Assembly (NCBI RefSeq): GCF_000504305.1
Contig: NZ_KI632512.1
Span: 404,388-468,387 of the forward strand
Length of the DNA: 64,000 nucleotides
From: Nitratidesulfovibrio termitidis HI1
GTDB taxonomy: Bacteria; Desulfobacterota; Desulfovibrionia; Desulfovibrionales; Desulfovibrionaceae
Reading direction: 5' to 3'
The position numbers and the translations under genes are program-made. Positions 22,110-39,416 of the stretch are shown here, piece by piece (position 1 is the stretch's first letter; every line of letters starts with the position of its first letter). The notes under the pieces are model-generated. The model saw only the letters and a list, made by a program, of their open reading frames with translations. It was not told the DNA's origin and made no database searches.

Positions 22110-22989
22110 TGCCATCACCCCGCAAGCGGGCGCGCACGCCACCACCCTGGGCACGGGGTTCACCGACAACCCCTACCTGCCCGACGTGGCCACCGTGCTG
22201 GAAACCGTGCAGGAAACCCCGGCCATCAAGACCCTGCGCGTGCGCATTGACGACCCTGCGCGCATGGAAGCCTTCCGTTTCAACCCCGGCCAGGTGGGCC
22301 AGCTTTCGCTGTTCGGCGTGGGCGAATCCACCTTTGTCATCAATTCGCCGCCCACCCGCATGGACTACCTGCAGTTCAGCATCATGCGCGCAGGCGAGGT
22401 GACCGCCGCCCTGCACGGGCTGAAGCCCGGCGACAAGGTGGGCGTGCGCGCCCCGCTGGGCAACTGGTTTCCGTTCGAGGACATGCGCGGCAAGGATATC
22501 GTGTTCGTAGGTGGGGGCATCGGCATGGCTCCGCTGCGCACGCTGCTGCTGTACATGCTGGACAACCGCGCCGACTACGGCAACATCACGCTGCTGTACG
22601 GCGCGCGCACGCCCACGGACATGGCCTTCCGCGACGACGTGCAGGAATGGCTGGGCCGCAGCGACATGCAGACCACGCTGACCGTGGACCAGGCCCCGGA
22701 AGACTGGCCGCACCGCGCGGGGCTGATTCCCCACGTGCTGCTGGACCTTGCCCCGTCCAACGCGAACAGCGTGGCCGTGCTGTGCGGCCCGCCCATCATG
22801 ATCAAGTTCACGGTGGAGGCGCTGAAGAAGCTGCACTTCGCCGACGAGCAGATCTACACCACGCTGGAGCGGCGCATGAAGTGCGGCATCGGCATCTGCG
22901 GGCGCTGCAACATCGGCACGAAGTACGTGTGTGTGGACGGGCCGGTGTTTACCTACGCCGAACTGCGCGACTTGCCCAACGAACTCTAG
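22102..22989 (+). CDS. flxA: FlxA, FAD/NAD(P)H-binding subunit of the Flx complex
   Basis: NAD(P)H dehydrogenase subunit of 295 residues with the ferredoxin-NADP reductase fold, as in sulfhydrogenase gamma subunits. The FAD domain covers roughly residues 25-130 (FNPGQVGQLSLFGVGESTF). The NAD-binding domain has VFVGGGIGMAPLRTLL near residue 135 and LCGPPIMIKFT near 230. The end has a four-Cys [2Fe-2S] motif, MKCGIGICGRCN then KYVC. GGAG lies 7 bases before the ATG, inside flxB. Together Flx-Hdr would oxidise NADH and bifurcate electrons to ferredoxin and a disulfide acceptor. It is the last gene of the operon. Confidence 0.94.
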   Translation: MPDAITPQAGAHATTLGTGFTDNPYLPDVATVLETVQETPAIKTLRVRIDDPARMEAFRFNPGQVGQLSLFGVGESTFVINSPPTRMDYLQFSIMRAGEVTAALHGLKPGDKVGVRAPLGNWFPFEDMRGKDIVFVGGGIGMAPLRTLLLYMLDNRADYGNITLLYGARTPTDMAFRDDVQEWLGRSDMQTTLTVDQAPEDWPHRAGLIPHVLLDLAPSNANSVAVLCGPPIMIKFTVEALKKLHFADEQIYTTLERRMKCGIGICGRCNIGTKYVCVDGPVFTYAELRDLPNEL

Positions 22990-23035
22990 GCGGTGCCGCC
23001 ACAAGGTGCTTTTTGCCCTCTGCCTTCGTCAGATC

Positions 23036-23088
23036 GCCTTTTCATTCCGGTCAGATACGACAAGAGTATCCTCCCTCCATGAAAAGGC
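23036..23088 (-). repeat. Copy B of a structured intergenic motif (33-nt core inside a stem)
   Basis: GCCTTTTCAT (23036-23045) and ATGAAAAGGC (23079-23088) form a perfect 10-bp stem around a 33-base interior. Read on the minus strand, 27 of the 33 interior bases match copy A at 39324-39356, whose enclosing stem has a different sequence. The interior contains a small ATAC/GTAT hairpin with loop TCTTGTC. It lies between flxA and the rubrerythrin-like gene. Confidence 0.7.
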
Positions 23089-23238
23089 TCTCTTCCTCGG
23101 CAGAGAACAAAAATCCCACTTGTGACGACACCCCCTGAAGAGAAGAAGGGGCACGGTTCGCAGAGCGGATTCGCTTCCAACAGACAGTCCACAAGCCCCC
23201 GGCGCGGAAGCGCCGCGCCGGGGACCTACGGAGAGCAT

Positions 23239-39052: not shown

Positions 39053-39148
39053 AACCGGGGAGGGGACCTTTTCGCTTTGCGGTCGCCATCCGTAAGGCTC
39101 GCGCAAGGCGCTCGCCTAACGGCTGCCGCAAAAGGTCTCCCTCCCCGG
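39053..39148. repeat. Large imperfect inverted repeat upstream of rsmE
   Basis: CCGGGGAGGGGACCTTTT near 39053 pairs with AAAAGGTCTCCCTCCCCGG ending near 39148; an inner CCGT...ACGG dyad lies between. It is followed by a second hairpin, CCCCCAAAC-TTTTTAA-TTGGGGG (about 39156-39179). The composite would form a cruciform or a long RNA hairpin in the rsmE leader. Confidence 0.65.
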
Positions 39149-39263
39149 ACCCCTCCCCCCCAAACTTTTTAATTGGGGGTATAGCAAACAACAGAAGCGA
39201 CGTAATGCCAACTGGCCTTCGCTGCGGCGTTTGACGCAGCCAGCAGGAAAAAGACGCCGCGCG

Positions 39264-39416
39264 CTAAGGGGCGGTTTTCAAATTAGGATTTTCGTTTGTT
39301 GGCAAGGAAAACAAGCCCGCCATGACGGGAGTATACTCTTATCGTATTCGACCGGAATGGCGGGTGAAGTTTGACGTAGCCAACGGGCGAAAGGACAATT
39401 TGAAAACAGCCCCTAG
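39264..39416. mobile_element. MITE-like element with terminal inverted repeats
   Basis: Left end CTAAGGGGCGGTTTTCAAA (39264-39282) and right end TTTGAAAACAGCCCCTAG (39399-39416) are imperfect inverted copies. The 153-base element encodes nothing and contains copy A of the 33-nt structured motif. The right end supplies the TAG stop codon of gcvT. A sequence homologous to the right end also begins at the stop codon of lapB at 57260-57295. Confidence 0.55.
39315..39365 (+). repeat. Copy A of a structured intergenic motif (33-nt core inside a stem)
   Basis: CCCGCCAT (39316-39323) and ATGGCGGG (39357-39364) form the stem, extended by one G-T pair. The 33-base interior has GGGAGTATACTC, an ATAC-TCTTATC-GTAT mini-hairpin, and ends GACCGGA. 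It matches copy B (23036-23088, opposite strand) at 27 of 33 positions with the same length, while the stems differ in sequence and remain paired. Confidence 0.7.

Follow-up and report, generated by a model that had tools for sequence, protein, structure and literature searches.

A mobile hairpin repeat with a strongly conserved fold lies mostly in one orientation at stop codons in Nitratidesulfovibrio termitidis

Two intergenic regions of the window, by which we mean the whole stretch of 64,000 nucleotides of Nitratidesulfovibrio termitidis HI1 analysed here, carry similar 33-nt cores enclosed by stems that differ in sequence. This raises the question of what kind of element keeps its pairing while its sequence changes. 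Both cores and their inner stems exist as the initial annotation had stated: the sites were re-read, and both stems form. Allowing up to 3 mismatches, the shared core TACTCTTRTCGTATNNGACCGGAATG occurs twice in the window and in none of 100 dinucleotide shuffles. Folding energies, expressed relative to shuffled sequences, gave z values of −6.3 and −4.5 for the inner hairpins, and of −9.3 (copy 1, 106 nt) and −10.5 (copy 2, 150 nt) for longer stretches. A covariance model of the family, run over the window at E up to 0.1, recovered both copies and no others (123.5 and 106.7 bits).

The stems described at first are real, but they are only the innermost part of the structure, as the cores are the tips of longer elements (Table 1). 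One copy had been placed in a MITE-like element and the other not; this contrast was wrong, because both copies lie in long hairpins. The two regions had also been called unrelated, and in one respect they are not: both elements adjoin a TAG stop codon and are oriented alike relative to it, which is the rule described below for the whole genome. Copy 2 sits between the 3′ half of an older family member and the gcvT stop codon. It is flanked on its 5′ side by TA and then one more A (39265-39267) and on its 3′ side by TA at 39414-39415, and the G of the gcvT stop is the last C of copy 2 on the plus strand.

Table 1. Positions in the window of the two copies and of the features that adjoin them.
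Feature	Position	Strand	Remark
Copy 1, whole element	22989..23135	-	3′ end on folded (minus) strand at 22989; 5′ end, at about 23135, deduced from outer stem GGGGGTGTCGTCACAAG/CTTGTGGCGGCACCGCC
Copy 1, inner hairpin and apical core	23036..23088	-	as in the initial annotation
TAG stop of oxidoreductase gene (NAD_binding_1, DHODB_Fe-S_bind)	22987..22989	+	adjoins copy 1
Copy 2, whole element, GGGGCGG...CAGCCCC	39268..39413	+	
Copy 2, inner hairpin and apical core	39316..39364	+	
TAG stop of gcvT (GCV_T, GCV_T_C)	39413..39415	-	adjoins copy 2 3′ end
3′ half of older family member	39224..39266	+	entire in G066 and G136, same place

A pattern search of the genome returned 31 matches, and the reversed control none. 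Alignment A1 holds 25 of these 31 (the six omitted are five that carry inserted repeats and one that lacks a locus), and covariance model R1 was likewise built from 25 of the 31. In the 4.26-Mb genome, R1 gave 95 matches at E up to 0.01, 27 of them at least 160 nt long. The search of related genomes that the initial annotation had proposed gave further copies, with R1 matches in 57 of the 199 genomes of the family, belonging to 14 of its 44 genera. With a second model, R2, built from 41 sequences and applied at E up to 1e-4, there were matches in 86 of the 297 genomes of the order and in 66 of the 395 genomes of the phylum. Copy numbers in these large searches are lower bounds, because few candidates were scored per genome. 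The exact core pattern was present in 61 stretches of named genomes, whose carriers include Desulfovibrio sp. A2, Nitratidesulfovibrio oxamicus, N. liaohensis and several Desulfovibrio MAGs. A MAG titled Betaproteobacteria (WRKB01 contigs; L311, L319) carries the core too, and its title is probably wrong. Tandem copies were seen at three loci: five copies about 152-160 nt apart in L112 (G102), two copies 147 nt apart in L115 (G011) and four copies about 146-153 nt apart in L263 (G040).

The element was also compared with existing collections. The Rfam comparison that had been suggested gave no gathering-score match for either copy: at gathering scores the window contains two tRNAs only, around copy 1 a single microRNA model matches at chance level (20.1 bits, the threshold being 100), and around copy 2 there is no match at E up to 1. 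Copy 2 had no match in a plasmid or a phage collection, and a plasmid or phage origin was rejected on this basis. No description of this element was found in the open-access papers searched, which does not prove absence.

The repeat is non-coding, about 120-150 nt in size with a conserved part of 117 nt in the model, and consists of a single long interrupted hairpin. From the foot, the outer stem, which is variable, is followed by an AGGA/GAC loop, then by a second stem that keeps a tandem U.G step (in 26 and 33 of 41 rows), a nearly constant CAAGGA/UGACG loop, a freely varying inner stem and finally the apical core, GGGAG-hairpin-CGACC. Both internal loops vary little. In the copies of N. termitidis, the middle loop reads C[AG]AGGA in 83 of 89 and, on the opposite side, UGAC[GAC] in 85 of 89. 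Sixteen copies from the phylum search were read, 14 of which come from other families. All 14 have CAAGG and 11 have CAAGGA, while the remaining 3 have CAAGGC with AAC opposite, that is, by reading, a loop changed on both sides. The apical core differs in the copies from other families. The loops may form tandem G.A steps (GGA against GAC). A kink-turn reading of the middle loop was tried on paper and does not fit.

Covariation was measured on alignment A4, made without structure from 23 of 30 matches and 18 own copies (omitted were the L112 copies at 1653, 1805, 1957 and 2117, L115:1354, L105:1702 and L116:280). Changes on both sides were found for 29 of the 34 pairs, against 19.9 in shuffles. 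Compensating-change cells numbered 262, compared with 65 in shuffles and at most 59 with a slid structure, and the proportion of paired cells was 96.3%, compared with 77.9% (shuffled) and at most 52.3% (slid). None of 500 shuffles reached any of the five covariation measures. Compensating changes exceed the controls, as in a structured family, and we conclude that the fold is kept by compensating base changes. The proposal of a conserved nucleic-acid structure with compensating stems is therefore strongly supported by the covariance-model test that came with it (95 genome matches, paired changes). A chance origin of the repeat was rejected by the shuffles of the core together with those of the covariation analysis.

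In an alignment fitted to the model, and counting columns with G.U at most 12%, the folded strand has 82 G.U against 25 A.C cells; 20 columns have more G.U and 6 have more A.C. Smaller sets yielded G.U/A.C ratios of 14/14 (A4) and 11/5 (A1). From these counts we hold, with moderate confidence, that the folded strand would be the favoured one. Relative to the adjoining gene, the strand that folds is antisense. With the favoured strand opposed to the gene in this way, a cis-regulatory RNA in the mRNA of the neighbour becomes less likely, and what is recognised would rather be one strand of DNA in folded form, or else a transcript made independently of the gene.

The position of the element relative to genes was scored on 89 of the 95 genome matches (the six weakest were omitted, and three extra right-strand matches were not used), with genes called by a codon model at a score of 25 or more. 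A stop codon was found within 32 nt of the 3′ end of the core in 69 of the 89 copies and of the 5′ end in 1, compared with 1.5% at random positions. Ten more copies, which have an inserted repeat in their 3′ half, have the stop 79-90 nt out, which brings the count to 79 of 89. Two further copies pass the test at a score of 15, and eight copies are outside these groups (L066, L078, L080, L082, L137 (first copy), L138, L143 and L026). A gene context was obtained for 81 of the 89 copies, one of them inside a gene. In the frame of the element, codon-model calls were -E- for 53, +E- for 22, +E+ for 4 and -E+ for 1 (n=80). The antisense genes on the 3′ side end at most 19 nt from the core end in 58 cases out of 75 (an example is ATC-TAG/GGGCTG, the slash marking the junction), and none of the 26 sense genes on the 5′ side ends less than 24 nt from the core. 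Most of the junctions read have the stop at the hairpin foot; in some (L122, L162) it lies about 10 nt off. The initial annotation could see neither this placement at stop codons and its fixed orientation, nor the outer stems and the loops that interrupt them, nor how widely the family is distributed.

The stop codons beside elements (n=79) are TAG in 67 cases, TAA in 7 and TGA in 5; in genes away from elements (n=115, sampled from loci of the same genome) the figures are 63 TAG, 30 TGA and 22 TAA. TAG is commoner (p 1e-5) and TGA rarer (p 0.0005) in the genes adjoining an element than in distant ones. The excess of TAG may simply come from the G that the element contributes. The stop is preceded by C in 36 copies, by T in 17, by G in 16 and by A in 4 (n=73). 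TAG is the commonest stop even away from elements, which is unexpected in a GC-rich genome.

A less specific open-frame test gave, in the same genome, 73 copies with a stop on the right and 25 on the left among 89 (random level 6%), and miscounted at least one copy (L080, site C). The codon-scored test was run because of this miscount and of the high figure on the left. In other genera, the open-frame test found 25 of 37 on the right and 8 on the left (p 1e-4). In other families, 7 of 20 were on the right and 3 on the left, with p 0.27 between sides, the right side being above the random level of 3.75%. Longest-ORF calls outside the genus, in which the 3′-side gene was antisense in 26 of 37 cases in the family and in 9 of the 18 with a gene called outside it, were noisy and were replaced by the open-frame test. 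The enrichment at stop codons could reflect selection rather than targeting. Element orientation differs between genome halves (p 0.002); such a replication-strand effect is uninformative, because the orientation of the elements goes with that of the genes, and the loci sampled give a noisy GC skew. Read-through of the stop into the element was considered by reading, and a shared reading frame is unlikely, because the stems vary freely and lengths differ.

Comparison within the genus allowed us to ask whether the element moves. At the gcvT-rsmE locus, genomes G100, G124 and G038 are without the element, G066 and G136 hold an older, different member, and N. termitidis, G112 and G085 carry copy 2 between the older member (whole or in part) and the stop. 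The G085 site reads GCGCGC-TA-GGGG...CCCC-TA-GACCAG, compared with GCGCGCTAGATCAG in G066. At the copy-1 locus, the copy in G100 is orthologous, and its core shows paired changes. In G085 and G066 this stop codon is occupied by a different member; G038 has a member of the G085/G066 type with two further hairpins inside, which are inserts of the kind of the second repeat described below. Four further sites (A to D) were read. Filled and empty orthologous sites were thus obtained at gcvT-rsmE, A, B and C, as for a mobile element, and at B and D the N. termitidis member lies at the 3′ end of the remains of an older one. In 3 of the 6 loci, the newer member is set between the older one and the stop codon. 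We conclude that the element moves, and that it inserts both at new places and at places held by older members. Some older members appear, by eye, to have lost the apical part and kept the outer stem and a CAAGGA-like loop (gcvT locus of G085, L176; site D in G100, G085 and G038, L252, L250 and L253).

The target and the possible movers were then considered. Among the sites read, only gcvT in G085 has a clean TA duplication; at A and B it is degraded, and at C it is absent. By automatic boundaries, which over-extend, TA is present at both ends in 4 of 73 copies (1.25 in shifted controls), solely at the 3′ end in 32 and solely at the 5′ end in 6. Empty sites already contain the TA of the stop. 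A search for IS630-type transposases, made with the DDE_3 model (PF13358) alone, found it absent in 8 of 8 genomes of the genus and present in 36 of 199 of the family. For Y1_Tnp (PF01797), there was no match in the N. termitidis genome, 2 of 8 genomes of the genus had one, both weak, and 74 of 199 did in the family. Insertions differ among the 8 genomes of the genus despite the absence of DDE_3 from all of them and of Y1_Tnp from 6.

The initial annotation had left three options: a cis-regulatory RNA, a small RNA, or a mobile repeat recognised as a hairpin. The last fits best, given the empty and re-occupied sites, the approximately 95 copies and the spread through the family, and the first has become less likely. 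The explanation that we favour, and to which we give an even chance, is that these mobile, non-coding repeats are REP/ERIC-like and that an enzyme probably recognises one strand of their DNA in its folded, single-stranded form. This strand, and not the mRNA of the gene, would be recognised via the constant loops, and the enzyme would join the element at the TA of the stop codon. The resulting TA/GGGG junction would restore TAG, the stop surviving insertion because the element begins with G in the direction of the gene. Effects on the neighbouring mRNA, if any, would be secondary. The same insertion could be imagined at the RNA level, as an entry between the second and third base of the stop codon in the ribosomal A site, followed by copying into DNA; RelE is described as cutting after the second base of stop codons (PMC5224514). 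If true, such termination-coupled insertion would explain the stop-codon targets and the TA/G junction, as well as the scarcity of TGA and the fixed polarity, without a DNA-site-specific transposase, and we see only a slim chance for it.

An ordinary TA-targeting MITE, moved in trans by an IS630/Tc1-type DDE transposase as proposed for RUP, and ERIC-like, is unlikely. It would account for the TA duplication at the gcvT site in G085, for the 5′-TA-3′ at the 3′ end of many copies and for the ends GGGGCTGTT/AACAGCCCC common to young copies, the fold resulting from inverted repeats or persisting for mRNA effects. However, TA is mostly missing at the 5′ end, the constant internal loops, the fixed polarity and the stop-codon position are left unexplained, and an IS630-type mover is disfavoured by the absence of DDE_3 across a genus in which insertions differ. 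ERIC and RUP, as described in PMC2229807, do resemble the element in being intergenic, about 100-200 bp long, with a long mispaired stem-loop, TA ends and no need of coding content. The element differs in an inner structure that covaries between subfamilies across genera and in the lack of an IS630-type (DDE_3) transposase in the genus, and may differ in its one-sided attachment to stop codons. Less likely again is a 3′-untranslated RNA element that protects, processes or terminates the adjoining mRNA, with selection keeping its position and orientation. The position just past stop codons in one orientation and the very stable folding agree with it, and ERIC in Yersinia is described as acting on mRNA in an orientation-dependent manner (PMC2229807). 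In that mRNA, however, A.C mismatches take the place of G.U pairs, and pyrimidine loops that of G.A-rich loops, the other strand appearing favoured; moreover, the adjoining genes are of different kinds, and close relatives differ in whether they carry the element at a given site.

Small RNAs or ribonucleoprotein RNAs transcribed from the folded strand are improbable, and rank just after the mRNA element. The excess of G.U over A.C on this strand, the possible tandem G.A pairs in the loops and the wide conservation are what they would produce, but both flanking genes oppose the folded strand in 53 of 80 copies, a conserved promoter-like sequence was not seen in the arms on reading by eye, and neither mobility nor the stop-codon position is expected of them. 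We consider it highly improbable that the repeat is a long form of GTAG REP moved by a RAYT (Y1) transposase, although TAG is found at the hairpin foot. GTAG REPs are likewise dispersed mobile hairpins at gene 3′ ends whose foot TAG is the stop of the neighbour, and they are described as often supplying the TAG stop of neighbouring ORFs (PMC3733652). Against this, the base before the stop is G in only 16 of 73 copies and most often C, the TA of the stop pre-exists in empty sites, and such a mover is disfavoured by the absence of Y1_Tnp from the genome itself. The element is also much longer, about 120-150 nt against 20-40 in the same description (PMC3733652), and has several constant internal loops and no fixed GTAG; neither the 20-40 bp length with an unpaired GTAG tag nor, in this genome, the RAYT of these REPs was found. 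Equally improbable is an origin without structural selection, in which template switching during replication repairs imperfect palindromes and so keeps complementarity. The stems are indeed nearly all Watson-Crick, but repair would also erase the mismatched loops, yet these are nearly constant, and it would not favour G.U over A.C on one strand; this explanation is already disfavoured.

Integron attC sites keep structure over sequence, with one strand folded and recognised, and lie at the 3′ end of an ORF. The element would share these three traits, but its copies are dispersed and do not form gene-cassette arrays, and a pair of R-boxes in the order of the attC consensus was not seen by eye in the copies read. 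CGTC REPs have CGTC at the hairpin foot, and no dedicated transposase is known for them in the account given (PMC3733652). The middle loop of the element, in the direction of the gene, is CGTC...TCC, a likeness to this description that may be due to chance. Its CGTC lies mid-way along a long rod, in contrast to the stems of 8-9 bp and loops of 4-5 nt of these REPs (PMC3733652), and in size and in the traits other than CGTC (stem, loop and CCA tail) it differs from them. Multicopy sequences have also been described in Geobacter metallireducens (PMC2700814).

The present family combines a strongly conserved fold with relatives across a phylum and a single orientation at stop codons. Many bacteria carry dispersed hairpin repeats. 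The mobilising enzyme has been identified for few of them, and their placement beside genes is usually ascribed to selection against harm. Neither of the two transposase types tested explains the repeat in this genus, so that the mover of orphan repeats, and the way in which they find gene ends, become directly testable. The covariance model can also be used for annotating many intergenic regions in Desulfovibrionaceae.

A second hairpin repeat was observed during this work. It consists of CCGTTAGGCGAGC-TTGC-GAGCCTTACGG with arms, and is found alone in the window at about 39079-39131 (plus strand). Related forms of it are nested in the loops of the large hairpin, at two recurrent places: the apical core (L045, L060), and the 3′ side of the middle loop after TTTGAC (L034, L046, L027, L158, L163 and L165-L167).
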